IMG/VR virus record: IMGVR_UViG_3300033150_001930
Coordinates: 1-20,171 of that record
Length of the DNA stretch: 20,171 nt
Source: a virus
Direction: 5' to 3' (one strand)
Part shown: positions 1,372-20,171 of the stretch, piece by piece
How the letters are laid out: each line of letters opens with the position of its first letter
How positions within the stretch are numbered: position 1 is the first letter of the stretch
Position numbers and translations under genes: made by a program
Notes under the pieces: generated by a model
Told to the model about the DNA's origin: nothing
Database searches by the model: none
The model's input: only the letters and a program-made list of their open reading frames with translations

Positions 1372-1411
1372 ATTTAGACATAAAATTTTATATAAAAAAG
1401 GTGAAAAGACA

Positions 1412-2213: not shown

Positions 2214-2214
2214 G

Positions 2215-3846
2215 ATGCCAGATTATAAAATTAAATTTGAATATGAGGGTTTAGGGAAAAAAGCCTCAGCTGGTCGTCAAAATGCTTTACAGGCTCAAAA
2301 AAAATCAATGGGTCTTCCTGAAATAAGTAAACCTTTATCAAAAAAAGGTATTTCAACTCAACAGGGTTTTGGAAAAGAGACTGTTTCTTCTATAAAAGTT
2401 TTAAATAAATCAATTAAAAAATTAATATCATCAAATGAATCTCTTGCTAAAAATATTAAAGGTAGTTCTGCTCTTGGTAGGGGTGGTTCAGGTGGAGGTT
2501 TAGGCGCAGGTGGAGCCGGTATTGGTAGAATCGGTGCATCTATTCCTATATTGGGTGCAGCAATTGCAGCTATTGGATTTTCTGTTCAAAAAATAAATCA
2601 AATTGGAAATGCATACATTGAAAAAGCTAGCCAGCAATTAGGGAATGTTGGGATCGGTGGATTCAGAAGAGGAGAAGGCGTTTATAATGCTGCTCAAATG
2701 GGAGCAGGAATGAAAGCCTATGGGATGGGAGCAGGCCAATTTGCTACTGGAGCAACACCAAATAAAACGGCTCTACAGATGGGTGGAGTATTTGGATTGT
2801 CAGCTGAGGAAACACTTAGAACAGCCGGACAATTTAAAAGAGCAGGAGCAAATTATCAACAAGCCGCATATACTGGAGCAGGTGCAGGAATTCAAACAGA
2901 ACTTCCAATGTTACTCACTGGAATGGCTGATATTTTAACAGAAGCTATTCGTGATGGTGTTAACACTAGTGATATGTCAAAAGATCTTGCAAAAGAAGTA
3001 TCTGCTTTAACAATGCGTACACCTGGAAAAAGCGTAGAGGCTGCTTTAAATATTGTTAGAAGTTTTCAAGGCGTGCAAAAAGGTCTAGCTGGCGGTAAAA
3101 TGGGAACTGCTCAAGGATTATTTGCAGCTAAAGCCAGTCAACAGATGCTAATGGAACGCATAACTGGAAAAGGTGGTAAAGAATATATAAAGTCCTTAGA
3201 AGATCAGGGATTTATTAGTGCTAAACAGGCAAAAGCCATGGGTGGATTAGAAAAAGGAACTGGATTTGAAAAATTCTTAGAGACTTCTCCGAGTGCTGCC
3301 TATTCACTTCTTAGAAAGTTTACAGCTGAGGCAAGTCCTGCAATGCTTCAGAAAAGAACTATTGGAATTATGAAAAGTAAATTTGGAGATACCCCTGAGG
3401 GCAGACAGAGAGCTTATGATTTTGCACTCAGTCAAGGTTTTTCAGAAAATCAGGCTCAATTAGAGACATTAATGCAACCAGGACAAGATATAGGTAAGAA
3501 AACAACTGAAGCAGGAAGAAGGGTTTTAGCTGGAAAATCGAAGCAAGTTGAAAGAAGTGAAGCTGGTATGACTGTTCAAAGACAACGGGTTAGGGAAAAT
3601 TTAATCTTTAAATATGGAAATGAATTTGCAAAATCATCTTTAAAAATGGAAAAAGCAATGATTAGTCTTGCAGAAGGAGTAATGCCAGTAGCCTCTGCTG
3701 CAATTAGTAAATTAGGAGAAGTTACTGCTGAAGCTTCAAAATCAATTAGTACTTCAATTGAAAATTTCGGTAAATTGAATAAAAAAATGTCAAACATGAA
3801 AATTAGTTCTGATCCATTTTCAAATCTTTATGAGTTAGCGAAATAA
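2215..3846 (+). CDS. Tail tape measure protein
   Basis: This 543-aa protein is the likely tape measure, which fills the tail tube, sets its length and is ejected ahead of DNA. It is placed right after the chaperones. A Gly-rich stretch at residues about 88-104 leads into a hydrophobic segment at about 105-123 (IGASIPILGAAIAAIGF) able to cross a membrane, typical of tape measures. The rest is Ala/Gly/Gln-rich, mainly helical, with a helical C-terminus (KAMISLAEGVMPVASAAISKLGEV). By the rule of about 1.5 angstrom per residue it predicts a tail of roughly 80 nm, short for a myovirus. ATG 2215 follows the previous stop by one base; the AAAGGG site lies about 14 bases upstream, so translation may be coupled. 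No lytic transglycosylase or peptidase motif was seen. Confidence 0.75.
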   Translation: MPDYKIKFEYEGLGKKASAGRQNALQAQKKSMGLPEISKPLSKKGISTQQGFGKETVSSIKVLNKSIKKLISSNESLAKNIKGSSALGRGGSGGGLGAGGAGIGRIGASIPILGAAIAAIGFSVQKINQIGNAYIEKASQQLGNVGIGGFRRGEGVYNAAQMGAGMKAYGMGAGQFATGATPNKTALQMGGVFGLSAEETLRTAGQFKRAGANYQQAAYTGAGAGIQTELPMLLTGMADILTEAIRDGVNTSDMSKDLAKEVSALTMRTPGKSVEAALNIVRSFQGVQKGLAGGKMGTAQGLFAAKASQQMLMERITGKGGKEYIKSLEDQGFISAKQAKAMGGLEKGTGFEKFLETSPSAAYSLLRKFTAEASPAMLQKRTIGIMKSKFGDTPEGRQRAYDFALSQGFSENQAQLETLMQPGQDIGKKTTEAGRRVLAGKSKQVERSEAGMTVQRQRVRENLIFKYGNEFAKSSLKMEKAMISLAEGVMPVASAAISKLGEVTAEASKSISTSIENFGKLNKKMSNMKISSDPFSNLYELAK

Positions 3847-3850
3847 ATAA

Positions 3851-5626
3851 ATGGAATTTTTTAAAAATACAATAATAGGACAAGCTGCATCAGGAGATAA
3901 AAAGATTGTCTTCAATGCTGGATATGAAGCTAGCTTAGAATATGCAGAGCCAAAAACAGTTATTACTCCTAAGATACAACTTTTATTTTCTCCTTATGGA
4001 TTACCATTTGTTCCTATAGAGATAATTGGAACAAATATTAACAAAATTCTAACGAATTTTCAGTGGACAAAAGATAGAACAAATCCTGGTGGAATGCTTC
4101 AATTTACAATTGTACCTGATTCAAGAACTATTCAAGACATAGTAGATATTTTAAATAAATTTTCTTTTAATTTTTACTCAAAGATATGGGGAGAACTTGG
4201 TGTTGACTTAGAAGATTTATTTAAGCCAATGACTCTTTGTCAGTTATGGATAGATGGTTATCATGTAATGACTGGCACAGTTCGAGGTTGTTCAAGATCC
4301 TCTAGTGCTGAAAATGAGGATAGACAAATAAGTTATAGCGTAACCATTGAAGAACTTGGAAATATTTATAATATGGGAACGACTAGTTTGGATTATATCT
4401 TACTCGATGGGATGCAGACTCAAATAGCTGATTCCATGAAATTTGCACTAGGTTTATCCTCTAATTTAAAAGGAGTTTCTGTAGCAACTGGATTAAATGC
4501 TATTTTAAATGCTTTTATTGCTACAAATCTTACAGAAGATGTAACTCTTTCAGATGGATTTCCTCTTGCTTTTAGATTGTTTGCAAAACCAAATCCTTTT
4601 GGAGCAATTGCAAATTCTTCAATTGCTTCATATATGACCATGGATTCTTCTCTATATGAACTTAATTCAGCCGGATCTTCTCAATCGGTATGGTCTTTTA
4701 TGCAATCATTTATTCCAAATCCATGGATGGAATTTTTTACAGAAAGTGGTGGAAGAACTATGGTTGTAGATGGATTAGGTGTTCCATCTGTATTGTTACC
4801 AGGAGCAAATTATGTTGTGGCGAGAACTGCACCATATTCAAATCCTATGCTTGGAACTGTTAATCCTGCATATTTTGCTCAGAATTTATTATTTGATTTA
4901 TCTTTTATTCAAATGCTTGTTGGAGGAGATTTTATAATAATTACAGATGATATGATTTCTGAAAAAAATCTAGGATTTGATAGTGTAAACCAATCAACTG
5001 TATTTAGAACTTCATATACTTCAAAAGCAGTTAGCGCAGGAGTTGCAGATTTAAGAGATAAAGGAATTAAATCTGCCGGTCCTTTAAATCCTTTCGCAAG
5101 TGGAGGGATTCCAACTTTTGGAATTAGGGAAATGACACAAACGATTGACTGCACATCTCTAATTGGTCTTGGCTCTACTGCAAGTTATGTAGAAAGAATT
5201 GCTAAAAACTTATTAGGAATTTCTGGAATAATGCCTTCTAAAAATCATTTAAGTAATTTATTATCGACATGGTTTAGAAATCAATCTAGATTTAGAGAAG
5301 GAACAGTAACTTGTAAAAATATTCCTTATGCTCGACCAGGTATGTATTGTTTATATCTTCCCTCAAATTCAGGAAAAAAAGTTGAAAATTTAAGAGATAT
5401 AGGAATTTATTATATAGATTCATTAAGTCACGAATATGGATTAAGCAATGAAGATATGAGTTTTACAACAACTCTTAATCTCATACGAGGGGTACCACTT
5501 CCTACAAGTGTTGCTCAAACCGCTATGTTATTATTTGATTTTGAGGTATTGCCTCCAGAGGCAGGATTAGGAGATGGAGAATATACAGTTTTAAAAAATT
5601 TAAGAAAAGCATCATCGGTATTATAA
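3851..5626 (+). CDS. Baseplate hub protein (gp27/gpD-like)
   Basis: This 591-aa protein is the likely hub, a trimeric ring joining the tail tube to the spike. The N-terminal part is beta-rich (residues about 57-180, including FQWTKDRTNPGGMLQFTIVP and LWIDGYHVMTGTVRG). The C-terminal part, about 488-550, has the family ending: YARPGMYCLYLPSNSG, then YYIDSLSHEYG, then FTTTLNLIRGVPL, resembling the XkdQ / late-control D pattern of a final loop, a His-Tyr segment and a strand ending in Arg-Gly. The middle (about 195-470) is longer than in small relatives and unassigned. The start ATG 3851 has almost no Shine-Dalgarno sequence and lies four bases after the tape measure stop, suggesting coupled translation. 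The stop overlaps the next start by one base. Function follows from order and the C-terminal pattern. Confidence 0.75.
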   Translation: MEFFKNTIIGQAASGDKKIVFNAGYEASLEYAEPKTVITPKIQLLFSPYGLPFVPIEIIGTNINKILTNFQWTKDRTNPGGMLQFTIVPDSRTIQDIVDILNKFSFNFYSKIWGELGVDLEDLFKPMTLCQLWIDGYHVMTGTVRGCSRSSSAENEDRQISYSVTIEELGNIYNMGTTSLDYILLDGMQTQIADSMKFALGLSSNLKGVSVATGLNAILNAFIATNLTEDVTLSDGFPLAFRLFAKPNPFGAIANSSIASYMTMDSSLYELNSAGSSQSVWSFMQSFIPNPWMEFFTESGGRTMVVDGLGVPSVLLPGANYVVARTAPYSNPMLGTVNPAYFAQNLLFDLSFIQMLVGGDFIIITDDMISEKNLGFDSVNQSTVFRTSYTSKAVSAGVADLRDKGIKSAGPLNPFASGGIPTFGIREMTQTIDCTSLIGLGSTASYVERIAKNLLGISGIMPSKNHLSNLLSTWFRNQSRFREGTVTCKNIPYARPGMYCLYLPSNSGKKVENLRDIGIYYIDSLSHEYGLSNEDMSFTTTLNLIRGVPLPTSVAQTAMLLFDFEVLPPEAGLGDGEYTVLKNLRKASSVL

Positions 5627-6693: not shown

Positions 6694-8475
6694 ATGAATT
6701 TGCCTCTACTCATACAGCAACTATATGGAGAATTTCAGTTTACTGGTCTATATTCTTTTGAGTTTGTAGATAGAAACAGAAATACCATTACAGAAGTATT
6801 TTTTATGTGTCCACCAAAGGGAAAAACAGTTTCAGAACCTACACGTTCCAGCACTATTCCCACTCTGGGTGGAAATTATAATGTTGATGGTGGAAATGCC
6901 ACGAAAATGATTACTCTTTCAGGTGATTTATATTTTCCCTATATTGGAAGTCCAGATAATCCTATCGCAAGAAATAATAATAATTTAGAAAATACTCTTT
7001 CTGGATTAGAAGAATTTTTAAAATTACGTTGGATGTTAATTCGTTATCGAGATTATACAATAACAACTAATTCAAAAATTAGTATTCCTTCTAGTATAAT
7101 CGGAGTTAGTAAAGAAATAAATGCTCTATATAAAAAAGTTTCAAAACAAGTTAAGGAACAGTCCGGAGCTTTATTAGATGAAATAAAATTAATCTTTCAT
7201 GATTACGATATGGATGATCATTTCTATTGTAGAATTGATAATTTTACAAGTACTCAATCAGATGCAAAATATATCGCTATAGATTATAATATTTCAATTG
7301 AATGTTATGAGCCTGATGATATCCAATCAACATTACAGATGAATCTAAGAAAACAAACAACAAATGAAAGCTTAGATATTTCATCAAAACAATTGGAATT
7401 AATTCAATATGATGAAGCTTATGATGATATTCAGGCTGAAATAGGTTCTAATTCATCCTTTATAGCAGTTGCTTCTACTGTAGAATTAGCAATTGATAAT
7501 ATTATAGAAGAAAATGAAAACATTCAAGCCGGAAAATCTACAGCTTCATCATTTTTACCCATATATAATTCTACTCTTTTAGCAAGTACAGAATCAGCAC
7601 TTGATTTTTTTATTAATACTTTTCTAACAAGTAGTCAAAAGACTGACTATGAAGTCGGTGATATTACAATTGATGATTTTATTGATAAAGACTTATTAGT
7701 TTTTTATAATATATTACAAAAAATAAAATTACAGGCAGAATCTATTCAAGGAATTTTGAATTCAATTCCTAAATTTGAAGATATCCGTTATTCTGTAAAT
7801 GCAGATGATTATACCTTAACGGAAGAACAATTTGACTCAGATGATGCTAGCAAAGTTGAGAATACTGCTAATTTTTATTATTATACTGTATTAGAAGGCG
7901 ATACTTCAAGAATAATAGCTCTAAGAGAATTAAACGATCAAGAAAAATTTGTTAATATTTTAAAAATAAATAATATAACCGAAAATAATTTTATAGATGG
8001 AGAAATTGTTGGAGAACAAATAAAAATACCTATTGATAAAAGTGTTGTTACAAGAGGTGATGATAATTTAGTTTATGAAACAGATCTTGACAATATTGAG
8101 AATTTTATTTTTGGCAAAGATATAAATGTGTCTTTGAATAAAGAGTTAGTCGCCTCTGCAACTGGTGATTTGTTGGCATTAGATGGAATAGAAAATGCTT
8201 ATAAAAATATAGAGAATAGAATAGATAGTAATAAAGGAAGTTTAAATGTTTTTAATCCTAATTATGGTACAATTTCTATAGATGAAAGCAATGCTCCTCT
8301 ATATGTAAAAATTGATAGGTATTTAACTGATATAGTTTCTCAGATTCAATCAGATCCACGGGTTTCAAGTGTACAGCTTGACCTGAAATCATTGCAATGG
8401 GTTAAAGATTCGGTTTCTGTTTCCACAAAAATATTCTTTATAGGAAATGAAAATGCAAGGGAGGTTACAGTCTAA
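6694..8475 (+). CDS. Baseplate wedge fusion: N-terminal tail domain + LysM (gp53-like) + gp25-like domain
   Basis: This 593-aa protein looks like a fusion of parts usually encoded separately. Residues about 15-85 (TGLYSFEFVDRNR, TIPTLGGNYNV, MITLSGDLYFP) resemble the beta-rich N-terminal domain of circularisation-protein-like or Dit-like tail proteins. Residues about 396-447 are a LysM-like module (YYTVLEGDTSRIIALRELN, KILKINNIT, GEQIKIPI), as in T4 gp53 and XkdP. Residues about 473-593 match the gp25/XkdS wedge family: ATGDLLALDGIENAYKNIENRI, NPNYGT, then DPRVSSVQLD, equivalent to the conserved EPR/DPR segment. The middle (about 215-390) is acidic and helical. Wedge proteins connect hub and outer baseplate. 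The start is uncertain: ATG 6694 lies 16 bases from the AAAGGA site, and ATT 6688 would be better spaced. The stop overlaps the next start (TAATG). Confidence 0.78.
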   Translation: MNLPLLIQQLYGEFQFTGLYSFEFVDRNRNTITEVFFMCPPKGKTVSEPTRSSTIPTLGGNYNVDGGNATKMITLSGDLYFPYIGSPDNPIARNNNNLENTLSGLEEFLKLRWMLIRYRDYTITTNSKISIPSSIIGVSKEINALYKKVSKQVKEQSGALLDEIKLIFHDYDMDDHFYCRIDNFTSTQSDAKYIAIDYNISIECYEPDDIQSTLQMNLRKQTTNESLDISSKQLELIQYDEAYDDIQAEIGSNSSFIAVASTVELAIDNIIEENENIQAGKSTASSFLPIYNSTLLASTESALDFFINTFLTSSQKTDYEVGDITIDDFIDKDLLVFYNILQKIKLQAESIQGILNSIPKFEDIRYSVNADDYTLTEEQFDSDDASKVENTANFYYYTVLEGDTSRIIALRELNDQEKFVNILKINNITENNFIDGEIVGEQIKIPIDKSVVTRGDDNLVYETDLDNIENFIFGKDINVSLNKELVASATGDLLALDGIENAYKNIENRIDSNKGSLNVFNPNYGTISIDESNAPLYVKIDRYLTDIVSQIQSDPRVSSVQLDLKSLQWVKDSVSVSTKIFFIGNENAREVTV

Positions 8476-9896
8476 TGGCTGATATAATAAAAATCTATAC
8501 GGCTGAACAGCTTTATGCTATATATAGAAATTATTTATTATCTAAAAATGTTGGTTTAACAGATTTTAATTCAGGTTCAAAAATAAGATCATTAATTGAA
8601 TCAAATTCAGAGGTTATTTCAAGTATTTCAATGGATTTTAAAGAATCAATATATAAATCTATTCCTGTAGCTTTATATGAAGGATTTAGATTTCAAAAGA
8701 CAGCTGCTATAAAATCAACAGGATTCATACGTCCATATCGAAAGCCAGCCTTTTTCATAACTTATACCGGAGCTGGAACTTCTGCTAAAATAACTTCTAC
8801 TGCTACAGATATTTTATCCGCAGTAACTGGAGCACCTACTGATGCTTTTAGTTTTGATTATACCACATATAACACAATTGGATCAGTAGTTTCTGCAATT
8901 GATGCCTTAATAAATTGGAGCGCTACTTTAGTCTTAGACACTTCTTTAGAGTCGATAATTCTTTATCAGTATGCAGCAAAAGAAGCCTTAAATGCTTCAA
9001 ATTATTTAGATACAGATGGATTAGATATAATGCTCAATACAGCTATTGAAATCGCTATTCCAACTGGATATTCAGTAAGTATAGATCAATTAACATTTCT
9101 ATCTATCATAGATGGTACAATATCGGCTGGAAATTCAGGTGTTCAATTAAATTCTCAGGCATCATTGGCTGGAGTAGACGGAAATATTTTGGCAGGATCA
9201 ATTGATACTTTAAATGGAAAAGGATTCATAAACTCTTCCATAGAAGGAATTGAACAAGTTATAAATGATGCCTCTTTTTCGGGGGGAGCTGCTGGAGAAT
9301 CTGACGATGCACGTAAAACTAGATTTGCTGAAACTGTAAACTCCCTAAATGCAGGTACTGCTACAGGTATAATTGCTGCAATAAAAAGTATTACGGGAGT
9401 AAGAAGTGTAGGAATAAGAGAATCCTATCCTTTCAAGGGTACAAACACTATTATTGTAGATGATGGAACTGGGATTATTAGTACAGAACTACAAGCTGAA
9501 GTTGAAAAAGTTCTTTATGGCGATCCAAGTGATATTATAAATTTTCCAGGAAAAAATGCAGAAGGAATTGGATATAATATTGTGGCGCCAACAATTGTAG
9601 ATGTAAGTATAGGTCTTACAGCATATAGACTTCCAAATGTAAATGTAGATTTAAGCGAAATAACTGAAGATGTTCAAACAGCTGTAGAACAATATATAAA
9701 CACTAGAGGACTAGGAGAGGATGTTGTCTTAAGTGAAGCCAATAGAGTAGGTAAAAATTCTAATGCAGCAGTTTATGATTTAGTTGTGACCAGTCCAAGT
9801 TCAAATGTAACAATAGATGAGAATCAATTTTCAAAAACAGGGCCAGGGACAACTGGTGTTATCACAGTTACGGCAGTAATAGCGGCAAGTGTATAG
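8475..9896 (+). CDS. Baseplate wedge protein J (gp6-like)
   Basis: This 473-aa protein matches the Baseplate_J family, the wedge that forms the ring around the hub and switches during contraction. Landmarks are FNSGSKIRSLIESNSEVISSIS and the LYEGFRFQKTAAIKSTG segment (about 30-83), then IPTGYSVSIDQLTF (195-208), QASLAGVDGNILAGSIDTL (228-246), GGAAGESDDARKTRFAETVNSL (270-291, the hallmark E-S-D-D-x-R-R/K-x-R-F region) and the domain SITGVRSVGIRES followed by IIVDDGTG. Between about 92 and 188 there is an extra domain of about 100 residues not present in compact relatives. A GGGAGG site lies ten bases before ATG 8475, inside the end of the upstream gene, and the start overlaps that stop. Confidence 0.88.
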   Translation: MADIIKIYTAEQLYAIYRNYLLSKNVGLTDFNSGSKIRSLIESNSEVISSISMDFKESIYKSIPVALYEGFRFQKTAAIKSTGFIRPYRKPAFFITYTGAGTSAKITSTATDILSAVTGAPTDAFSFDYTTYNTIGSVVSAIDALINWSATLVLDTSLESIILYQYAAKEALNASNYLDTDGLDIMLNTAIEIAIPTGYSVSIDQLTFLSIIDGTISAGNSGVQLNSQASLAGVDGNILAGSIDTLNGKGFINSSIEGIEQVINDASFSGGAAGESDDARKTRFAETVNSLNAGTATGIIAAIKSITGVRSVGIRESYPFKGTNTIIVDDGTGIISTELQAEVEKVLYGDPSDIINFPGKNAEGIGYNIVAPTIVDVSIGLTAYRLPNVNVDLSEITEDVQTAVEQYINTRGLGEDVVLSEANRVGKNSNAAVYDLVVTSPSSNVTIDENQFSKTGPGTTGVITVTAVIAASV

Positions 9897-9899
9897 AAA

Positions 9900-11453
9900 A
9901 TGAGTATAACGGATAGAATAAATAGTAATTTACAAACAGTTTACAACATTGAAGATCCTAAATACAAGGCCCTAATCTGTGATAAAGATGGAACTAATCC
10001 TGATACAATAACAAAACCTACAGATATCGATTTAGGAGTTATCACAAGTCAAATAGAATTTCTAAGAAGATTATCCATAGATTTATTAAAACAAATTTAT
10101 ATTGATCAAGCATCGGGTGAATTTTTAAAATTTCAATTAAATGAATTTTTTGATAGTTTAAGACTTGAAGATGAAACAGATACTGAATGGGTTCAAAGAA
10201 CAATTGCAACTGTTTTAGGACAAAAAGTTTCCAGAGCTTCAATTATATATGCACTAAGACCATATTCAAGTCAAGAACCTGAAATAACTACAACTTTACA
10301 AGAAAGTGCTTTTGCAGATTTTTCTTTTGCAGATGCATATACAACAGAAACATTTACTGAAATAACAACAATTATTGATAATTATTTTAATTGGACTTCA
10401 ATAACGCAACCTGAAACAAATTCATGGCAAAATACTGCATATGGTAATGGAGTATTTATTACAGTTGCAACTAATGGAACAAACAGAATAATGAGATCTG
10501 AAGATGATGGATTAACATGGTCAGCTGTTTCAGCTTCTGGTGTTAATTCATGGCAAGGTATTGCATATGGCAATGGTGTTTTTGTTGCTGTTGCATATAA
10601 TGGAACAAACAGAATAATGAGATCTGAAGATGATGGACTGACATGGACATCTATAACAGAACCTGAAACAAATGGATGGATGAATGTTGCTTATGGCAAT
10701 GGTGTTTTTATAGCTGTTTCTGGAGGTCCTGGAGCAAATAGTATAATGAGATCTGAAGATGATGGACTGACATGGTCAGCTGTTCCTCCTTCAGATACAA
10801 ATACATGGCAAGGTATTGCATATGGTAATGGAGTATTTATTACAGTTGCAACTAATGGAACAAACAGAATAATGAGATCTGAAGATAACGGTTTAACATG
10901 GGTTTCAGTAGTTGGTTATGATTCAGTTGCATGGCAAAATATTGCATATGGCGATGGTGTCTTTATAGCTATTGGCCCTAATAGCATAATGCGTTCTGAA
11001 GATGATGGATTAACATGGGAAAATATTACTTCTCCAGAAAATAATATATGGATAAATATATCATATAATCAAAGCAATAATACTTTTATTTCTGTTTCTG
11101 GATCTGGATCAAATAGAATTATGATTTCTGAAACAAATGGGTTAACATGGTCTTTAGCTACAGCACCTGAAAATAACAGTTGGATTGGATTAGCAAATAA
11201 TAGTAATGGACTTTTTATAGCTACATCTGGAGATGGAACAAATCGTATAATGAGATCTTATCATGATAGCTTCACAACTTCTGAAATAATTTATGTACTG
11301 CCTGCATTAGCTGGAAGTATACTTAATTCTCTTTTTACAGTAAAAGTAACTTTATACGATACATCAAGAGAAGATATCTGGACTGTTCAAAATATTTTAA
11401 GAAAAATATTAGCAGCCGGAATTTCATATATTTTAGAGATAATATATACATAA
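9900..11453 (+). CDS. Baseplate/tail wedge-like protein with inserted seven-bladed Asp-box beta-propeller
   Basis: This 517-aa protein occupies the gpI/gp7 position after J. Residues 1-160 (ASGEFLKFQLNEFFDSLRLE, WVQRTIATVLGQKVSRASII, FADFSFADAYT) and 461-517 (FTVKVTLYDTSREDIWTVQN, ILRKILAAGISYILEIIY) read like two halves of one tail protein family. Between them, residues 165-456 hold seven repeats of 39-44 residues, each with a Trp (176, 218, 260, 303, 345, 384, 428), a YGNGVFIAV strand, and in most an Asp-box SEDDGLTW (S-x-D-x-G-x-T-W). There are six full GLTW strands plus W165 at the start, the pattern of a propeller closed by its N-terminal strand. Asp-box propellers often bind glycans, so receptor contact is a reasonable inference. 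No sialidase arginine triad was apparent. The start lacks a good ribosome binding site and sits three bases after J. Confidence 0.75.
   Translation: MSITDRINSNLQTVYNIEDPKYKALICDKDGTNPDTITKPTDIDLGVITSQIEFLRRLSIDLLKQIYIDQASGEFLKFQLNEFFDSLRLEDETDTEWVQRTIATVLGQKVSRASIIYALRPYSSQEPEITTTLQESAFADFSFADAYTTETFTEITTIIDNYFNWTSITQPETNSWQNTAYGNGVFITVATNGTNRIMRSEDDGLTWSAVSASGVNSWQGIAYGNGVFVAVAYNGTNRIMRSEDDGLTWTSITEPETNGWMNVAYGNGVFIAVSGGPGANSIMRSEDDGLTWSAVPPSDTNTWQGIAYGNGVFITVATNGTNRIMRSEDNGLTWVSVVGYDSVAWQNIAYGDGVFIAIGPNSIMRSEDDGLTWENITSPENNIWINISYNQSNNTFISVSGSGSNRIMISETNGLTWSLATAPENNSWIGLANNSNGLFIATSGDGTNRIMRSYHDSFTTSEIIYVLPALAGSILNSLFTVKVTLYDTSREDIWTVQNILRKILAAGISYILEIIYT
10437..10505 (+). repeat. 69-bp perfect direct repeat, copy 1 (propeller blade 1)
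   Basis: Bases 10437-10505 are identical to 10818-10886. The copies are 381 bp apart, exactly 127 codons or three blades, and in the same reading frame. Other blades carry shorter near-identical pieces. Recombination between copies would delete or duplicate three blades without breaking the frame. Confidence 0.9.
10818..10886 (+). repeat. 69-bp perfect direct repeat, copy 2 (propeller blade 4)
   Basis: Second copy of the repeat at 10437-10505, checked base by base. It ends where blade 4 changes from GATGATGG to GATAACGG (SEDDG to SEDNG). Perfect identity over 69 bp, while neighbouring blades have diverged, suggests recent blade duplication or gene conversion. Confidence 0.9.
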
Positions 11454-11466
11454 TAAGGATAAAAAA

Positions 11467-13527
11467 ATGCGTGATATAAGAACATTAAATATGTCTGAAG
11501 GTCAGAAAATAGAATCTGATCTTGTAACAAAAAGAATTGGAGATTTATCTTATCGAAATTTAGGCACATTTATGAAATCTTCTTTATTTGATTCTGGAAA
11601 AGCTTTAATTGTTGGAAATGGATTAAGAGTCGAGCCTAGTTCAGGAATGACTATTAATGTTCCTTCTGGAAGTGTTTTTCAACGATTTAATGATGTAATT
11701 CCATGTATTCAAATTGAAGATCAAACCGTGACACTAGAAGCTGCAACAGGAGTCGCAAGAACAGATATAATAGAGGCCCAGGTTCAAAAAATTGCAGATA
11801 AAAACGATTATTCGCAAGTTGCAACTATTGCAAGTGGATCAGCTATTTCAATTACAAATGAATTAATAAAAAGAGATATAAAATATTATTTATCTGTAAG
11901 AAGACAAACAGATACAACAGATTCTACAGTCGCAATAGCTGGAGTTTTAACCGGAACAATTGCAATTCCAGGAACAATTGATTTATCTACAGAATATTTA
12001 TTAAATATTTCAGATGGAGAAGATGGATCTTTTCAAGAAATAGATTGTCGTGGAGCAACTCCAATTGCAACAACACCTACTGAAATTATAAATGCTATAA
12101 ATGCAGCTGTTGGAAGAACAATGGCCTCAATTGGAGCAGGTGATGTAATTGTTTTAACTGGAAATGGAGAAGGAGAATCAAGTTATTTCGAGATAAAACC
12201 TCCAGCAACAGATACAGATAAAGATTGTTTGCAAATAGTTTTTGGCGTATCTATTGGTGGAGCATATAGATATGTTTATGAGGGAACAAATGAATGGTTT
12301 AAGCTAGCTGAATTTGATGTCGGAACAACAACTACAGTAATAACTACTGGATTAATTAGAAATATAGATCAAAAGAATACTTGGGCGAGTGAATCAAGTG
12401 ATATTGTAGTTCAAAGTCACCTATATGATCATGTAACTATAACAAATGATGGAAATATGGGATTAGGATTAATTGATTCTGGATTAGTCAGTAATTCTTT
12501 AGTTAGTGGTCCGTTTTTTGCTTTAGGTGATACCGATACAGGAATCGGTCAAGACGGAACTGATATATTAGATATTTGGACTGGTGGTGTTAGACGTGTT
12601 ACGGTTGACAATGCGGGTAATATAGGAATAGGGATCAATTCTCCTTCATTTAATTTTCAACTTAATAGTGATACAGTTGTAAGTTATTTTCATATAACAA
12701 ATGATGATTCTGGAACAACAACGTCTGATGGATTAGTTTTAGGACTTTTAAACGAAGTAGCTATTTTAAATGTAAGAAGTGATTGGCCTTTAACTATTTT
12801 AACAAATGATTCAGAAAGAATAAGAATTTCGAATGATGGAATGATTTCAACAGGAGGCGAAACTGAACCAGACATTTTAGCTCATGGTATATGTACGAAA
12901 ACAGATGGAAATGGAAATACTTTTACACATAAACGCTCTTCGATTACACATGGGTTTTCTTCTATAGCTGAAGTAGATACTTTTTTAGAAATAGAAGATA
13001 TTGCAAATGGTAGAACAATTATCTCAACATATTCAACAAATTCTTCTACCAATTCTTTAGTTTTAAATTGTTATGCAGATGTGGGTTCTTCAGCAGATGG
13101 AGCATGTACTATTTCAGGGTTTAAACGATCTGGAACTAATATATCATCTTTAGGGGCAGGAGAAGGTATTTTTCAAGTCGCAAATGCTGGGACAACTAAA
13201 CTAAGAGTTTACGGGAATGGAGATACAAAATCATCTACTGGTTCATTTACTATTTTTGATGATGAAGAAGACTTGCAATTAGTTAGAACTCTTAATGCCA
13301 TGTTTTATGATGGACCGAATAAAAGAGAACTTTATCCAAAAATAATAAAAAAATATGGTAAGAAGTTAGAGAACTTAGGTATAATTGAAAATGGTTTTAG
13401 ATCCCATGATAATAGCTGGGCTTTGAATTTAGGAGCAATTGGTCAATTGTTTAATATAGTAAAAAATATTGGTAAAAAATTGAATTTATCCGAAGAGCAA
13501 TTATTAGAATTTTCAAAAGATTACTAA
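11467..13527 (+). CDS. Tail fibre / receptor-binding protein
   Basis: This 686-aa protein ends the main tail operon, where host-range fibres usually lie. ATG 11467 follows an AAGGAT site. Residues 1-145 look like a baseplate-attachment and shaft domain (GNGLRVEPSSGMTINVPSGSVFQ). Residues about 160-260 form a small domain (YLLNISDGEDG, PTEIINAINAA, GDVIVLTGNGEGESSYFEI) resembling the flagellin hook-IN pattern. Residues about 350-460 have repeated shaft motifs common in fibres (LGDTDTGIGQDGTDIL, GGVRRVTVDNAGNIGIGINS, SERIRISNDGMI). The last 90 residues (597-686: DDEEDLQLVRTLNAMF, KKYGKKLENLGII, LNLGAIGQLFNIVKNIGKKL) form a helical ending in place of a typical S74 chaperone domain. No catalytic depolymerase motif was recognised. 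Receptor binding is inferred from position and repeats. Confidence 0.72.
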   Translation: MRDIRTLNMSEGQKIESDLVTKRIGDLSYRNLGTFMKSSLFDSGKALIVGNGLRVEPSSGMTINVPSGSVFQRFNDVIPCIQIEDQTVTLEAATGVARTDIIEAQVQKIADKNDYSQVATIASGSAISITNELIKRDIKYYLSVRRQTDTTDSTVAIAGVLTGTIAIPGTIDLSTEYLLNISDGEDGSFQEIDCRGATPIATTPTEIINAINAAVGRTMASIGAGDVIVLTGNGEGESSYFEIKPPATDTDKDCLQIVFGVSIGGAYRYVYEGTNEWFKLAEFDVGTTTTVITTGLIRNIDQKNTWASESSDIVVQSHLYDHVTITNDGNMGLGLIDSGLVSNSLVSGPFFALGDTDTGIGQDGTDILDIWTGGVRRVTVDNAGNIGIGINSPSFNFQLNSDTVVSYFHITNDDSGTTTSDGLVLGLLNEVAILNVRSDWPLTILTNDSERIRISNDGMISTGGETEPDILAHGICTKTDGNGNTFTHKRSSITHGFSSIAEVDTFLEIEDIANGRTIISTYSTNSSTNSLVLNCYADVGSSADGACTISGFKRSGTNISSLGAGEGIFQVANAGTTKLRVYGNGDTKSSTGSFTIFDDEEDLQLVRTLNAMFYDGPNKRELYPKIIKKYGKKLENLGIIENGFRSHDNSWALNLGAIGQLFNIVKNIGKKLNLSEEQLLEFSKDY

Positions 13528-13547: not shown

Positions 13548-13733
13548 ATGAATAATACAGAAAACATTTTAATAAAAGAAAAGTATCAAATATCCAGTAA
13601 AATATTACAAGATTTATTATTATATTTAAACAATAAGCCTTATGGAGAAGTGAATTTTTTATTTGCTAGTTTAATAAAAAGGATTCAAGAAGAAAATTCT
13701 TTAGAAATTTCTAAAGAAAAATTAGAAAAATAG
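13548..13733 (+). CDS. Small conserved protein following the tail fibre
   Basis: This 61-aa protein starts at ATG 13548 with an AGAGGAAAG site, 20 bases after the fibre stop. It is helical and charged: KYQISSKILQDLLLYLNNKP, then YGEVNFLFASLIKRIQEENS. Short proteins with a YLxxxPYxEV core are often seen next to tail fibre genes in phages, but their role is unknown to me; a fibre assembly or trimerisation helper is only a guess from position. It is the last gene before the bidirectional terminator. Confidence 0.65.
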   Translation: MNNTENILIKEKYQISSKILQDLLLYLNNKPYGEVNFLFASLIKRIQEENSLEISKEKLEK

Positions 13734-13740
13734 ATCTTAA

Positions 13741-13782
13741 AATACAAATATTAAGAAGTTATAATTTCTTAATATTTGTATT
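13741..13782 (+). terminator. Bidirectional intrinsic terminator between convergent genes
   Basis: A perfect 17-bp stem, AATACAAATATTAAGAA (13741-13757) paired with TTCTTAATATTTGTATT (13766-13782), encloses an 8-base loop. It lies between the end of the tail operon (+) and the end of the astacin gene (-). On + the stem is followed by GATTTTCT, on - by TTTTAAGAT, so it can stop transcription from both sides. The stem is AT-rich and therefore weaker than usual, but its length compensates. Confidence 0.75.
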
Positions 13783-13797
13783 GATTTTCTATATATA

Positions 13798-14442
13798 TTA
13801 TTTTCCATAAATAATATATATTTTTTGAATATCTAACTCACTAGGCTTTGAACTATAATTTAATTCCTTTTTTGAATTTAATATTTCTAATGACGGTCCA
13901 TCTCCATTGCTACAAGTATAATAATCATAATGCATTATAGAGCTATAATCATATTCTAAAGATTCCTCTCTATATAACGGATTGTCTAATATTTGAAAAT
14001 TATTTTGAAATCCTTCTAATATATTTTCAAAATTAATTATAACATAATCATCTCGATCTGGTCTTTGATGTTCATGTGTCAATCCTAAGACATGACCTAA
14101 TTCATGTGTAATACATTTTTTAGTGTAAATATTTACATTTCCTAGTTGCATAAAGGAATTTTTACTTCTTCCAATTATAGATTTATAATTATTTGTATTT
14201 ATACTTCTAAGGATATTGACAGAATATTCTTGATCTTTCTTTTCAGTAAATATTATGTTTGTCTTAGCTGTCCATTCTTTCATACAATCTTCTATAATTT
14301 TTTTTTCTTTTTGTGTAAATTCATCTTGATAATTATAATAAACTATTCCATCTTCCCATTTATCAATTTTTAGAACTGTTTCTTCTTCAATAATGCATGA
14401 AGTAAAAAGAAGTGATAAGATTATTGTTATTATTGTTTTCAT
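13798..14442 (-). CDS. Astacin-family (M12A) zinc metalloprotease, predicted lipoprotein
   Basis: This 214-aa protein has the full astacin signature. HELGHVLGLTHE (113-124) supplies three zinc-binding histidines (H113, H117, H123) and the catalytic E114, continuing into HQRPDRDDYVII. SIMHY (168-172) is the Met-turn with the family tyrosine. The start of the domain (KWEDGIVYYNY, then an EWTAKTNIIF helix-strand) and the end (SELDIQKIYIIYG) are also canonical, so the domain is complete, with no long propeptide. Residues 1-15 are a short signal peptide and FTSC suggests a lipobox with lipidated C16, although F at -3 is unusual. The tail after C16 is acidic (IIEEE). ATG 14442 has an AAGGGAG site. 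It has its own promoter and a terminator and reads against the tail operon, as expected of a moron. Likely role: modifying the host surface or outside proteins; the substrate is unknown. Confidence 0.85.
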   Translation of the reverse strand: MKTIITIILSLLFTSCIIEEETVLKIDKWEDGIVYYNYQDEFTQKEKKIIEDCMKEWTAKTNIIFTEKKDQEYSVNILRSINTNNYKSIIGRSKNSFMQLGNVNIYTKKCITHELGHVLGLTHEHQRPDRDDYVIINFENILEGFQNNFQILDNPLYREESLEYDYSSIMHYDYYTCSNGDGPSLEILNSKKELNYSSKPSELDIQKIYIIYGK

Positions 14443-14452
14443 AAAAATACTC

Positions 14453-14502
14453 CCTTATTCTTTACTTTATATTAATAAATATACAAAAAGTAAAGAATAA
14501 GG
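14453..14502 (-). promoter_or_regulatory. 16-bp perfect inverted repeat around the astacin promoter and ribosome binding site
   Basis: Arms CCTTATTCTTTACTTT (14453-14468) and AAAGTAAAGAATAAGG (14487-14502) are perfect complements with an 18-base loop. On the - strand the first arm covers the end of the -35 box and the spacer, the -10 box lies in the loop, and the second arm ends in AAGG of the astacin Shine-Dalgarno. RNA reading through from DUF669 could form the hairpin and hide the ribosome binding site, or terminate at the following TATTTTTA. RNA starting at about 14471 lacks the first arm. It could instead be an operator. Confidence 0.7.
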
Positions 14503-14506
14503 TCAA
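14478..14506 (-). promoter_or_regulatory. Sigma70-type promoter of the astacin gene
   Basis: On the - strand TTGACC (14506-14501; 5 of 6) is followed by a 17-bp spacer and TATATT (14483-14478; 5 of 6). The expected start is near 14471, about 30 bases before the ATG. A-tracts directly upstream could act as an UP element. Spacing and boxes make this one of the best promoters in the window. Confidence 0.7.
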
Positions 14507-14508
14507 GT

Positions 14509-14533
14509 ATTTTTTTATTTTTTTATTTTTTTA
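14509..14533 (-). repeat. T(A7T)3 25-bp element upstream of the astacin promoter
   Basis: On the - strand three runs of seven A, separated by single T at an 8-bp period, end two bases before the -35 box. The element is identical base for base to 16494-16518. Its position fits an UP-element-like A-tract. It begins just after the stop codon of the DUF669 gene. Confidence 0.8.
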
Positions 14534-14535
14534 TT

Positions 14536-15003
14536 CTATTTTGCCCAAACTGGCTTTGGATTTCCATTTTCAGAACCTTGAGTCGTTACAGATGGTGAAG
14601 TCTCAACTTTTGAGGTATTACTTTCTTTTATAGGCAAAACTTTATTTATTTTATTTGGAAAATCTTCATCTCCAGTCATCTTAATATCAATAAGAAGTGG
14701 TTTATTATGTAGAATTTCAGTATCAGTCAATTCATTCAAATCCAATGCATCAAGAACAAAATTCATTTGTTTTTTCCCTATATTTTCTGCAACTTTATTC
14801 TCATGTTTAGCATTAATAAATTGATTAATCTTTCTTCCATTTAATGGTCCATCTATAATTTGATATTTAAGAACAAGTACCATTCCAGTCCCTTTAGAAT
14901 TATCTTTGTATTCTGTTTCATAGATAATTGCTGAATATAACCCTGCTGGTATCGCTGGAAATTCGTCTTTAATTTCTTCTTTTACATAATTTACTCTAGG
15001 CAT
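14536..15003 (-). CDS. DUF669 family protein, probable ssDNA-binding recombination partner
   Basis: This 155-aa protein fits DUF669: IPAGLYSAIIYETEYKDNSK, GTGMVLVLKYQIIDGPLNGR, INQFINAKHENKVAENIGKK and a low-complexity tail ending in NPKPVWAK. Members have an OB-like fold and are found next to Sak4-type ATPases, where an SSB-like role is proposed. Here it follows the Sak4-like gene by two bases with an AAGGAGA site before ATG 15003, so the two are co-transcribed. The tail is Ser/Thr/Asn-rich and ends in a basic residue rather than the acidic tip of classical SSB. Function is inferred from family and neighbour. Confidence 0.75.
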   Translation of the reverse strand: MPRVNYVKEEIKDEFPAIPAGLYSAIIYETEYKDNSKGTGMVLVLKYQIIDGPLNGRKINQFINAKHENKVAENIGKKQMNFVLDALDLNELTDTEILHNKPLLIDIKMTGDEDFPNKINKVLPIKESNTSKVETSPSVTTQGSENGNPKPVWAK

Positions 15004-15005
15004 AA

Positions 15006-15848
15006 TTATTCTCCTTTTTTATTAGTTTTATTAGTTTTATTAGTTTTATTAGTTTTGTTGTTATTTTCTGTCAATAACCATTCCATTATATCGGAACAGT
15101 GTTCTAGAGAAACATTAATATCACCAAGTCCAAAACTGTTCCCATTCATCATAGATGGTTTTTCTCCAGCAAGGTTCAATACTCTTTTTTCAGATGAAAA
15201 AGCTTTTCCTTTTTTACTTAAATCATTTTTATCAGGTGTTTTGATAAACACTTCTTGATCATAAAAAGCAATAATATCTGCCCATTCCTCTACAATAGCT
15301 AAGGCGTGTTTATCTATCTTCATAACAAATTTATCATAAGGGTCCATGGTTGGAAGATTAACAGTAATCGTTTGAGAATGAGCTATTGCGATTATATTAT
15401 AGCCTGCTGCTCTTAAAATATCACAGTTCTGAAAAAAGATCTTCCAACCTGCGACAGCGTGGTATTTTAATCCTTTTTGGAAGCCTGTTTCTTTGCTGTG
15501 ATCATCAGTTAGAGATTTAATTTCTTTAGAACTTTGATCATTTAATTTTTTTAAAACAACTTCATGAATTATTGGCTCTAACCAATCCAAACTATCAATT
15601 ATAATTGTTTTAAAATCATGTTTTCCAGAAAGAATGAAGTCAAACCATCCCATCAATTCGCTATAAGTTTTAACCAATGGGGCTTTTTCTGTATCAATAT
15701 GATCGACACGATCTTCAGTAGGAATTAAAAAAGAATTCTTTGTTGATGCAGCAAGCGTAGTCTTTCCTAGTTTAGGTGGACCATAAATTACAATTTTTCG
15801 AGGCATTTTTTTTACGCCTTTTTGAATATTTTTTAAACTAAATTCCAT
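15006..15848 (-). CDS. Sak4-like RecA-fold ATPase (phage AAA_24-type)
   Basis: This 280-aa protein has a P-loop GPPKLGKT (23-30), Walker B TIIIDSLDWLE (81-91) and a sensor-like IIAIAHSQT (152-160), the layout of phage Sak4/AAA_24 ATPases. These are RecA-core proteins that promote single-strand annealing together with an SSB-like partner, in this case the DUF669 gene next to it. It lacks the RecA N- and C-terminal domains, as in that group. ATG 15848 has an AAAGGAG site nine bases upstream; the core begins at MPRKIVIYG (residue 15). The C-terminus carries four NKT repeats encoded by a 9-bp tandem repeat. The gene follows the 125-aa protein by about 20 bases. Confidence 0.8.
   Translation of the reverse strand: MEFSLKNIQKGVKKMPRKIVIYGPPKLGKTTLAASTKNSFLIPTEDRVDHIDTEKAPLVKTYSELMGWFDFILSGKHDFKTIIIDSLDWLEPIIHEVVLKKLNDQSSKEIKSLTDDHSKETGFQKGLKYHAVAGWKIFFQNCDILRAAGYNIIAIAHSQTITVNLPTMDPYDKFVMKIDKHALAIVEEWADIIAFYDQEVFIKTPDKNDLSKKGKAFSSEKRVLNLAGEKPSMMNGNSFGLGDINVSLEHCSDIMEWLLTENNNKTNKTNKTNKTNKKGE
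15021..15056 (-). repeat. 9-bp tandem repeat, four copies, encoding NKT
   Basis: Four perfect copies of ATTAGTTTT on the + strand (AAAACTAAT on -) lie at the 3' end of the Sak4-like gene and encode Asn-Lys-Thr repeats. Being a multiple of three, a change in copy number by slippage would alter length without shifting the frame. Confidence 0.85.
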
Positions 15849-17175: not shown

Positions 17176-18345
17176 ATGGCTAAAATACCAAAAATCATTA
17201 AATTTGATGAAACACTTATGAAAGTAGATAAAAAATTAGAAGAAAAACAAAGGCTAGAAGGTCCAAGAAATTATCTGGGGATGTCTCAGATAGGCGAGGA
17301 GTGTTGGAGAAAACTTTTTTACTCCTTTAGAGGCTGTAAAAAAAGAGAAATTGCTGCTTCTGGAATTAAAGCTATAGAAGACGGGTTTAAGCAAGAAGAC
17401 ATTATGGCTGAAAGACTCCGACTTCTTTCTTATATAGAATTACATACTATGGACCCGAATAATCCAAAGGAACAAATAGGTTTTAAAACACTTCTTGATC
17501 ATTTTAGAGGACATTGTGATGGAATGATTAAGTATATAAAAGAAGCTCCCCAGAGTTGGCATGTCTGGGAGAATAAATCTGTAAATGAAATTAAATTTAA
17601 AAAAATGTTGAAATTCCGAGAAGAGCTTGGAGAAAAAAATGCATTAAGGGAATGGGATGAAATATATTATGCTCAAGCGCAACTCTACATGCATTGTGCA
17701 ACTGTAGAGAGACATTATCTTACGATCCAAACTCCAGGGGGAAGAGCTTATCTTTCAGTCAGAACTAATTACAATGCAAAACAAGCCGAAGCTTTAATAG
17801 AAAAAGCTAAAGTAATCATTTTTGATAATTTTTCTATTCCTGCTAAGCTATCTGAGAAGAGAGAATTCTATAAATGCAAGTGGTGTGAATTTCAAGAAAT
17901 TTGTCATGACGGTGATTTCCCAGAAGTAAACTGTAAGACATGTAAATTCTCGGAACCAACTAAAAATGGCCTTAGATTGTGTCATAAAAAAAATGAAACC
18001 CTTGATAATAATAAATTATTTCTTAATAATTGTACCAGTCATCTCTATAATCCTGCTCTTATCTCAGCGGATGTAATAGATGAACAAGAAGATTGTTTCT
18101 TATATAGAACAGCATCAGGATTTATCTTCGCCAATTGTACCAGTTCCGGAATGCCAGCTGCTAATGAAAATATCAATATTGAATCAATTCTTCCAAGCCT
18201 AGAGCTATTCGAAAAAATAAGGAGTGTTAATAACTTTTCAAAAGAAGCTTTAACTATTCAAAAAACTTTTGATGGTGATATTTTAGGATCAAAAGAAAAG
18301 ACTCAAAAGGCATGGGAATCAAATAATAAGTTAAAAGGGATATGA
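17176..18345 (+). CDS. Cas4-like PD-(D/E)XK exonuclease with predicted Fe-S cluster
   Basis: This 389-aa protein has the RecB/Cas4 nuclease motifs: GHCDGMI with D115, WENKS with E132 and K134 (the D...E-x-K core), and AQAQLYM with Q167 and Y171. C43 (in GEECWRKLFYSF) and the late trio C234, C237 and C243 (CKWCEFQEIC) form the one-plus-three cysteine arrangement of the 4Fe-4S cluster of Cas4 and AddB. A second set (C253, C256, C269, C286, H289) could bind zinc or belong to an added finger. Such phage nucleases process DNA ends for replication and recombination, which fits the neighbouring helicase and the divergent Sak4-like ATPase. ATG 17176 has an AAAGGAG site. The C-terminal 100 residues are unassigned. 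Catalytic residues appear intact. Confidence 0.82.
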   Translation: MAKIPKIIKFDETLMKVDKKLEEKQRLEGPRNYLGMSQIGEECWRKLFYSFRGCKKREIAASGIKAIEDGFKQEDIMAERLRLLSYIELHTMDPNNPKEQIGFKTLLDHFRGHCDGMIKYIKEAPQSWHVWENKSVNEIKFKKMLKFREELGEKNALREWDEIYYAQAQLYMHCATVERHYLTIQTPGGRAYLSVRTNYNAKQAEALIEKAKVIIFDNFSIPAKLSEKREFYKCKWCEFQEICHDGDFPEVNCKTCKFSEPTKNGLRLCHKKNETLDNNKLFLNNCTSHLYNPALISADVIDEQEDCFLYRTASGFIFANCTSSGMPAANENINIESILPSLELFEKIRSVNNFSKEALTIQKTFDGDILGSKEKTQKAWESNNKLKGI

Positions 18346-18347
18346 AG

Positions 18348-19010
18348 ATGAAAAAGATATTATTTGAGGTAAAATTACCTTATAATGTAGAAGTAAATGA
18401 AGAACAATTTAAAATTCTTAATAAATATTTTAACATAGAATACAAATCAGAAGAGCATTTTAAATTATCATCATATGACGATAAATACAAAGAAATGAAT
18501 GAAGATGAATGCGAGCAATATAAAAAAGATAAATACAAAGAATATTTAGCTAAAGAGTTCAAAGAAATAGTTAAAAATGAGAATAAAGCTGTTGTAGACT
18601 TAATTTTATGTGCAGAAGAGTGTACTTTTGTTTCTTTAGAGATACTTAAAAAAGTTGAAATTGAATTTGAGTCAAAAATAACCGATTTTTCTGAAATTGT
18701 TGAACGATTTGAAAAAGTAATTTCTAAAATACCAGAGAATACTTTTAATAGTCAATGTGATGTGCATATAGGTGGAAGTCTTTTAATGAATGTTAATGAC
18801 TTAAAATTATTAGAAGACTGCTGTACAGATAAAGTGCAGGAAGAATTAAATAAAGGTTGGCGAATAGTCTCTTGTTGTGTTCAACCAGATGGAAGAAGAC
18901 CAGATTACATTCTAGGGAGATACGAAGACGTTCAAAAAATGTTAGATATTTCTGGTTATATCGGAATATTTTTAAAAAAGAGTATGAGGAGCAATAGTAA
19001 TTTATGTTAA
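18348..19010 (+). CDS. Unknown protein with C-terminal GWRIVSC...RPDYILGR motif
   Basis: I chose ATG 18348, which is eight bases from AAGGGA; ATG 18342, overlapping the nuclease stop, is too close to that site. The product is 220 aa. The N-terminal two thirds is acidic and Lys-rich, with little homology I can recognise (VKLPYNVEVNEEQFKILNKY; then a charged helical part). Near the C-terminus, about residues 167-190, is KVQEELNKGWRIVSCCVQPD followed by GRRPDYILGRY, a small module seen in various phage proteins whose role I do not know. The 3' end overlaps the helicase start by eight bases. Likely part of the replication module by position only. Confidence 0.6.
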   Translation: MKKILFEVKLPYNVEVNEEQFKILNKYFNIEYKSEEHFKLSSYDDKYKEMNEDECEQYKKDKYKEYLAKEFKEIVKNENKAVVDLILCAEECTFVSLEILKKVEIEFESKITDFSEIVERFEKVISKIPENTFNSQCDVHIGGSLLMNVNDLKLLEDCCTDKVQEELNKGWRIVSCCVQPDGRRPDYILGRYEDVQKMLDISGYIGIFLKKSMRSNSNLC

Positions 19011-20171
19011 CACCAAGATATTATCAGCAACAAGCAATTGACGCCTTTTTCGATTATGCCTCAAATAATTATGGGAAGCATCCAATAATTGTTCTCCCAA
19101 CGGGAAGTGGAAAATCTCTGGTCCAGGCTAATATTATAAAAAAGATATTAGAGTATGAACACACTAGAGTTTTAATGCTTACTCATCAAAAAGAACTCAT
19201 TAAGCAAAATGTTGGAGAATTAATAGAAAATTTAGATAATGATTTGTTTCTTGATGTAGGGATATATAGCGCAGGCTTGAAAAAAAAAGAAATAGGAAAT
19301 CGTGTGACTTTCGCTGGCATTCAATCCGTATGGAAAAAGGCGTGGGAAATGGGATGGTACGATGTAATCTTGATTGACGAATGCCATTTAATAAATGATA
19401 AAAATACTGGAATGTATCGTACATTTTTATCTGAATCTGAAAAAATAAATAAAAATATCTTAATAGTCGGTTTGTCCGCAACTCCATTTAGAATGAAGAG
19501 TGGTTTACTTACAGATGGAGAAGAAGCTTTATTCAATGATATCTGTCATGAAACGTCTGTGAAAGAACTTATTGAGCCAAATCATCATAATAATTTAGAC
19601 AAAAAGCAATATCTTTGTAGACTAATTTCTAAAGGAGCTGTAAATAAAGCAGATTTATCAAATGTTCATCTTAGAGGCGGAGAATATATCCCTAAAGAAA
19701 TGCAGGAAGCTTTTCAAGCTAAAGGATTAATTGTAAAATCTGTTCAAGAATTATTAACATATACATCCGATAGAAAGAAAATACTTATCTTCGCAGCTGG
19801 CATTAAGCATGGCGAAGAAGTCCTTGAAGAGTTTAGAAAATTAGGTGTTCTAGCTGAAATAGTTCATTCCGAAAAAACAAATGATGAAAATGATTTAAAT
19901 ATTTTAAATTTCAAAAGAGGAGCCTTTAAATATCTTATCAATATTAATTCTTTAACAACTGGCTTTAATGTAAAATCTATAGATTGTATCGCATTATTGA
20001 GATCAACTAAATCACCAGGTCTTTATAGTCAAATGGTTGGTAGAGGATTAAGAATCCATCCAGACAAAGAAGACTGTTTAATTCTAGATTTTGGTTCAAA
20101 TATAGTTCTGCATGGCCCAATTGATAAAATAGAAATAATTTCAAAAAAAGATGGAACTAGAGAAATCTCTT
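19003..20171 (+). CDS. SF2 DNA helicase (3' end outside window)
   Basis: The frame opens at ATG 19003 and continues without a stop to the window edge (389 codons). Motifs occur in SF2 order: Q-like YYQQQAIDAFF (residues about 6-16), motif I LPTGSGKS, motif Ia LTHQKEL, motif II VILIDECH (a DECH box), motif III VGLSATPFR, motif V-like INSLTTGFNVKSID, and motif VI SQMVGRGLRI. This is the DEAH/Res-type helicase architecture of phage replication or branch-migration helicases (UvsW-like function is an inference). It overlaps the preceding gene by eight bases; the GAGGAG site is 12 bases upstream, a little far. An A9 run near 19278 is read in frame. The C-terminal part, needed to assign a subfamily, is missing. 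Confidence 0.85.

Follow-up and report, generated by a model that had tools for sequence, protein, structure and literature searches.

A predicted lipid-anchored astacin is encoded at 13798-14442 on the minus strand of a 20,171-nt viral DNA (IMG/VR record IMGVR_UViG_3300033150_001930, positions 1 to 20,171; this whole stretch is referred to as the window), and short lipoprotein astacins of this kind were found in at least nine distinct phages, that of the window included. None of the nine phages' astacins appears to have been described before. The window astacin had no match in PHROGs; INPHARED yielded no phage astacin, and whole-window megablast and tblastn against it gave nothing; in BFVD, a reovirus astacin and distant matrixin-like proteins were the only finds, with no phage astacin among them. 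A protein-pattern search for close relatives returned none for the astacin and none for the baseplate protein of the window, no phage astacin was found in the open-access full-text literature on astacins and phages, and nothing relevant was found in the literature on viral M12A peptidases as auxiliary genes. An earlier note on this DNA, made from the sequence alone, had remarked that astacins have no known standard phage role. PHROGs, INPHARED and BFVD bear this out, as does a 2023 review that restricts viral astacins to a single one, of Lutzomyia reovirus 2 (PMC9848320).

Genomic setting and predicted fold of the astacin

The window is a myophage fragment, in which the astacin gene sits between a tail-fibre gene and a recombination module:

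8475-9896, plus strand: baseplate J-like protein (PF04865, 2.3e-17)
11467-13527, plus strand: tail-fibre-like gene, convergent neighbour of the astacin gene (phrog_9942, E 7.5e-5; 56-57% identity to relatives L008 and L002)
13548-13733, plus strand: 61-aa ORF at the end of the tail module (ORF call)
13798-14442, minus strand: lipoprotein astacin gene, 214 aa, ATG start (Pfam, AlphaFold2, Foldseek)
14536-15003, minus strand: DUF669/ssDNA-binding protein, upstream of the astacin gene on the same strand (profile matches)
15006-15848, minus strand: Sak4-like ssDNA annealing ATPase (profile matches)
17176-18345, plus strand: Cas4-domain exonuclease (phrog_1990, 3.4e-58)
19004-20170, plus strand: ResIII/DEAD helicase, cut by the window end (profile match)

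The earlier note had placed the gene at exactly this position and on this strand, antisense between tail and replication modules. The gene is indeed antisense to the tail genes on its tail side, but the module on its far side is mainly one of recombination (Sak4, DUF669/SSB, Cas4-type exonuclease, helicase). Neither an integrase nor a lysis module was found in the 20-kb record. At 9900-11453, a baseplate-side protein carries several BNR/Asp-box-like repeats that are inserted relative to its shorter orthologue (213 aa) in L008.

The Pfam Astacin profile (PF01400) covers residues 28-212 of the product (profile positions 1-186 of 189, E 1.5e-36), with a score of 126.3 bits versus a curated cut-off of 22.5 bits. 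Two elements carry the catalytic residues:

14053-14106, minus strand: zinc-binding and family motif HELGHVLGLTHEHQRPDR, H113-R130, then D131 (sequence, invariant alignment columns)
13927-13941, minus strand: SIMHY Met-turn and tyrosine ligand, residues 168-172 (sequence, alignment)

The zinc motif HELGHVLGLTHEHQRPDRD contributes H113, E114, H117, H123 and E124, and residues 113-131 read HELGHVLGLTH-E-HQRPDRD, matching HExxHxxGxxH, the family E and xxRxDRD in turn. The zinc ligands are invariant in the alignment, in which the Met-turn reads SILHY in three homologues; in the window astacin the catalytic Glu, the family Glu, the zinc ligands and SIMHY are all intact. An AlphaFold2 model built from 26 homologues (mean pLDDT 90.9, pTM 0.85) had BMP1, hatching enzymes and crayfish astacin as top Foldseek matches (E down to 3.4e-18; TM 0.77/0.82 for 1ast), and the top PDB sequence matches were tolloid-like 1 (E 1.1e-20) and BMP1 (E 3.3e-20). 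The structure prediction that the earlier note had proposed thus returned an astacin fold and, with the PF01400 match and the intact motifs, bears out its description of a complete astacin catalytic domain. The product of 13798-14442 is predicted to be a zinc endopeptidase of the astacin catalytic type.

A lipoprotein-type signal without proenzyme features

The N-terminus carries one further element:

14395-14442, minus strand: lipoprotein-type signal, codons 1-16, lipobox LFTSC with Cys16 (hydrophobicity, Cys16 conservation)

By inspection and a simple rule, this signal, MKTIITIILSLLFTSC, consists of an n-region Lys, a hydrophobic stretch and the lipobox Cys. No other N-terminus in the window comes near its hydrophobicity (12-mer mean 2.7, next best 1.66), and among the window proteins the astacin alone is clearly exported, as judged by predicted signals. 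Cys16 is invariant in all ten aligned viral proteins, and we infer that it is lipidated. From Cys16, 12 residues lead to Trp29, where the catalytic domain starts without a propeptide, and the zinc-blocking Asp motif FxGD is absent from this intervening sequence. The signal peptide ending in FTSC and the lack of a long propeptide, both read from the sequence in the earlier note, are confirmed by these data. That note had also named closer similarity to an intracellular or virion-associated peptidase family among the outcomes that would speak against it; such outcomes did not appear, and an identity as intracellular or virion peptidase gained no support, the closest relatives being predicted exported lipoproteins.

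In the review, astacins are characterised by a prodomain, by two disulfides and by an N-terminus that is both free and buried (PMC9848320). The cysteines of the window astacin lie at positions 16, 53, 110 and 177, so that the disulfides C42-C198 and C64-C84 have no counterpart, and Cys16 alone is conserved in the viral set. The family Glu124 is present, and the mature N-terminus would be the predicted lipid-bearing Cys. Because the propeptide, FxGD and the conserved disulfide cysteines are absent, the protein is classed by its sequence as an astacin-domain, lipoprotein variant and not as a full member of the proenzyme architecture.

Recurrence among phages and an accessory slot

A degenerate motif scan (HExxHxxGxxHEHxR) of IMG/VR returned 41 stretches. 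Short lipoprotein astacins were present on ten viral contigs including the window, equivalent to nine distinct phages, as L026 and L041 are identical in the astacin gene and were counted as one. The ten aligned viral proteins are 33-42% identical to the window astacin. In a tree, the window protein and L023 were joined (98/85) and L008 was joined weakly (80/80); a clade of other bacterial astacins was separate with good support (95/94), and the viral genes grouped with lone spirochaete genes with weak support. GC-rich viral matches (L007, L011, L040 and others) were left out of the family as distant and with borderline Pfam scores. They belong to a second, mostly GC-rich viral group with the astacin-like motif HETGHTLGFPHEHMR (L007, L010, L011, L013, L014, L020, L021, L027, L029-L032, L036, L037, L039, L040, L042, L045-L047), which shares a block SKYWGxxGVxLTVGFMExTP and has no obvious signal; two members tested scored 23-27 bits with Pfam Astacin, which is borderline.

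In five phages, the window, L008, L128 (L023), L130 (L033) and L133 (L044), the astacin gene is convergent to, and adjoins or lies near, the baseplate/fibre module. L008 is a close relative of the window phage, with baseplate proteins 69% identical, and its astacin gene likewise lies beside DUF669. L002 and L004 are related to the window by Sak4, Cas4 and helicase (52-59% identical) and lack the astacin gene at the same slot, where the gap from DUF669 to the next gene is 38 bp and 34 bp, respectively. Presence in the window and L008 and absence from this slot in L002 and L004 define an accessory gene, and in this sense the moron-like character proposed in the earlier note stands. L002 and L004 carry tyrosine recombinases.

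Several other features of these contigs were observed. Among the tail-fibre genes of L002 lie an outer-membrane phospholipase A1 gene (14104-14868; PF02253, 5.9e-38) and, at 14907-15410, a gene for another small protein, which starts with a signal-like sequence and matched nothing in Pfam; predicted envelope-acting enzymes, such as this phospholipase, thus recur among fibre genes. The L002 helicase (1184-3769) has a large, intein-like in-frame insert (861 aa versus 579 in L004). L131, a 99.9-kb phage contig, encodes two lipo-astacins, 41% identical and about 4 kb apart. The astacin-bearing L128 contains an adenylosuccinate-synthetase-like gene (3358-4440; PF00709, 6.7e-45), which might be of the PurZ type, for modified DNA.

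A promoter buried in an inverted repeat

Predicted control elements flank the astacin gene:

14478-14506, minus strand: sigma-70-like promoter TTGACC-17-TATATT (10/12 consensus match)
14453-14502, minus strand: perfect 16-bp inverted repeat, loop 18 (repeat search; RNA fold z -7.5)
14450-14456, minus strand: Shine-Dalgarno-like AAGGGAG (predicted paired in read-through RNA)
13741-13782, minus strand: perfect 17-bp inverted repeat, probable terminator between the convergent genes (repeat search, RNA fold)

These are the only two repeats in the window with arms of at least 14 bp, one on each side of the gene, which would make it an insulated cassette; perfect arms of at least 14 bp did not occur in any of 20 Markov shuffles. 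Promoter-like sites as such were no rarer in shuffled sequence. For the promoter claimed in the earlier note there is the promoter-like 10/12 match, and for the terminator a strong 3' hairpin (RNA fold z -6.5), but this hairpin is A+T-rich and a standard terminator scan (at least three G-C pairs, loop 3-8) found none. That the predicted promoter lies within a perfect inverted repeat had escaped the note. The 5' arm overlaps the -35 end and occupies most of the -35/-10 spacer, the -10 element sits in the loop, and the 3' arm falls within the 5' UTR, covering part of the Shine-Dalgarno sequence. The predicted probability of this sequence being unpaired is 0.00-0.18 in a read-through model versus 0.11-0.83 for RNA from the predicted own start.

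The layout also occurs in L008 and L026 with unrelated sequences, that is, in three of nine distinct phages. In the own transcript of L008 the Shine-Dalgarno sequence is predicted to stay paired, and the L023 astacin gene, which overlaps the ORF before it, seems to be driven as part of an operon. The dyad was dropped as a general trait of these phages, most homologues being without it. That the repeat serves as a repressor operator or as a terminator of the upstream operon, instead of as an RNA translation switch, has a substantial if less than even chance: promoter-spanning dyads are classic operators, and in the window the hairpin is preceded by an A-tract and followed by a U-tract. However, the three phages share the layout but not the arm sequences, and in L008 and L026 no U-tract follows the stem.

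A probable spirochaete host

Among the best eight genome matches of the astacin, six were Spirochaetes MAGs (L048, L050, L052-L055), one was SAR324 and one another bacterium. The host comparison was made on whole phyla; three single genomes used as a control were uninformative. Astacin matches were found in 31 of 296 Spirochaetota genomes, the best covering the full length including the signal (181 bits), and in 27 of 296 Bacteroidota genomes, the best (125 bits) with an alignment that begins past the signal. The nearest spirochaete homologues have lipobox-like signals. The Cas4 profile matched 2/296 Spirochaetota versus 0/296 Bacteroidota genomes. Because both matches adjoin an integrase-like gene, an XRE-like regulator (by inspection), DUF669 and a helicase related to that of the window (40-42% identical), these two loci look like integrated prophages. 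Homologues of the tail module lie on another Spirochaetota contig. A Mu-like prophage region in a Spirochaetes MAG (L097; Gam 1.1e-30, GemA 1.7e-10) has an astacin gene after GemA; the first strand is missing from the product of this gene, which may be degenerate. The evidence supports, without proving, a host in the Spirochaetota, and the window phage is probably temperate, as judged from its relatives, namely the tyrosine recombinases of L002 and L004 and the spirochaete prophages that look integrated and share its recombination module. Phages of spirochaetes are poorly known.

In L048, L049-L054, L150 and L151, a chromosomal lipo-astacin gene is followed by genes for a ~400-aa protein, a CxxCH cytochrome-like protein and a ~182-aa protein, a set conserved in Spirochaetes and SAR324.

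Possible roles of the tethered protease

An envelope role is supported by the predicted tether, the gene position, the recurrence and the accessory slot; the proximity to fibre genes hints at a role connected with adsorption without establishing it. Our preferred reading, held tentatively and at a little under an even chance, is that a moron of a probably temperate spirochaete myophage encodes an astacin-type zinc endopeptidase that would be exported and fixed in the envelope by a lipid on Cys16 and a tether of 12 residues, there being no propeptide whose activation is needed. The gene would be transcribed from its own promoter; transcripts starting in the hairpin loop would leave the ribosome site largely free, and read-through RNA from the recombination operon would fold this site into a stem and be poorly translated. 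The enzyme, presumably active at the surface, would trim host envelope proteins, and the most likely benefit would be that proteins used as receptors by rival phages are altered or removed (superinfection exclusion or surface conversion). A strong host-type promoter does not by itself establish expression in the lysogen, which the earlier note had envisaged beside expression late in infection.

The main rival, possible but in our view unlikely, is a helper in lysis or release: as infection ends, the anchored protease would weaken the envelope, perhaps by cleaving proteins of the outer membrane or proteins linked to the cell wall, and would thereby let virions out or strip debris of receptors. 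In Listeria, the phage-derived metzincin Mtz and the lipoprotein Tim raise phage-lysin sensitivity and virion release (PMC8235301), the relative L002 encodes an outer-membrane phospholipase, and the hairpin arrangement is shared with the T4 lysozyme gene, which it keeps from causing premature lysis (PMC3014915). However, no holin, endolysin or spanin was recognised beside the astacin in the annotated loci, the promoter is host sigma-70-like and not evidently a late one, and the gene is accessory in close relatives. It is likewise rather doubtful that the protease acts in lysogenic conversion for host fitness, digesting environmental or competitor proteins as chromosomal spirochaete lipo-astacins might, with no effect on other phages. 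The nearest bacterial relatives are indeed chromosomal short lipo-astacins of Spirochaetes and SAR324, and the spirochaete protein pallilysin is a surface lipoprotein metalloprotease (PMC3406077), yet in the main chromosomal clade the astacin gene shares an operon with a cytochrome-like gene and two more genes that are absent from the phages, and the recurrent tail-fibre adjacency suggests a phage-centred role. A virion-associated protease digesting the surface during entry would fit a gene that adjoins tail-fibre genes in several phages, but is very improbable, as the gene is antisense to the tail operon with its own predicted promoter and the lipoprotein signal is conserved in all aligned viral proteins.

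Astacins count as a family of animal enzymes to which bacteria contribute scattered members and viruses just one (PMC9848320); phage astacins that recur and are tethered to the envelope would provide one more way, a proteolytic one, for phages to remodel the host surface. The phage lipo-astacin would also be a small, testable enzyme that seemingly needs no propeptide, and its gene suggests that, in phages other than T4 too, a promoter within a hairpin may control an envelope enzyme with the potential for harm. In a broader and more speculative proposal, to which we give only a small chance, lipid-anchored astacins in several spirochaete phage lineages would form a new class of exclusion factors that cut receptor proteins, some of them silenced in read-through RNA by a promoter-in-hairpin switch.

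Comparison with known systems

The window protein shares with MEROPS M12A/PF01400 members (crayfish astacin, BMP1, meprins, flavastacin, myroilysin) the catalytic domain, HExxHxxGxxHE-xxRxDRD, SIMHY and the fold. It differs in being phage-borne, in lacking the propeptide, the FxGD switch and the conserved Cys for two disulfides, and in an N-terminus that is placed on a predicted lipid anchor and is not free and buried. LegP (NF045530), a Dot/Icm effector, is also a bacterial astacin (E 1.5e-27), but the window protein reaches 96.7 bits versus the curated equivalog cut-off of 300 and shows no sign of an injected effector. The chromosomal short lipo-astacins of spirochaetes and SAR324 (L048-L055, L147, L150-L152) are similar in size, carry an N-terminal lipobox-like signal and are 26-42% identical; unlike the phage gene, most belong to a conserved operon of the chromosome that includes a cytochrome-like gene, and no adjoining phage genes were recognised.

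Superinfection-exclusion proteins of the Ltp type are not known to be proteases. Ltp of phage TP-J34, a superinfection-exclusion lipoprotein (PMC3952083), resembles the window protein as a phage-encoded envelope lipoprotein. In the control region, the likeness is to T4 genes e and soc, with gene e as the documented precedent for a hairpin that encloses the promoter and, in longer transcripts, masks the ribosome site (PMC3014915); the T4 promoters are late promoters, whereas that of the window looks host sigma-70-like, as predicted from sequence. Listeria Mtz differs in that it has not been reported to be an astacin (its Met-turn reads AIMLD) and acts with the TIMP-like lipoprotein Tim, a kind of partner not seen in the window; as a phage-linked, exported metzincin at the envelope, Mtz with Tim is nevertheless the nearest functional precedent (PMC8235301).
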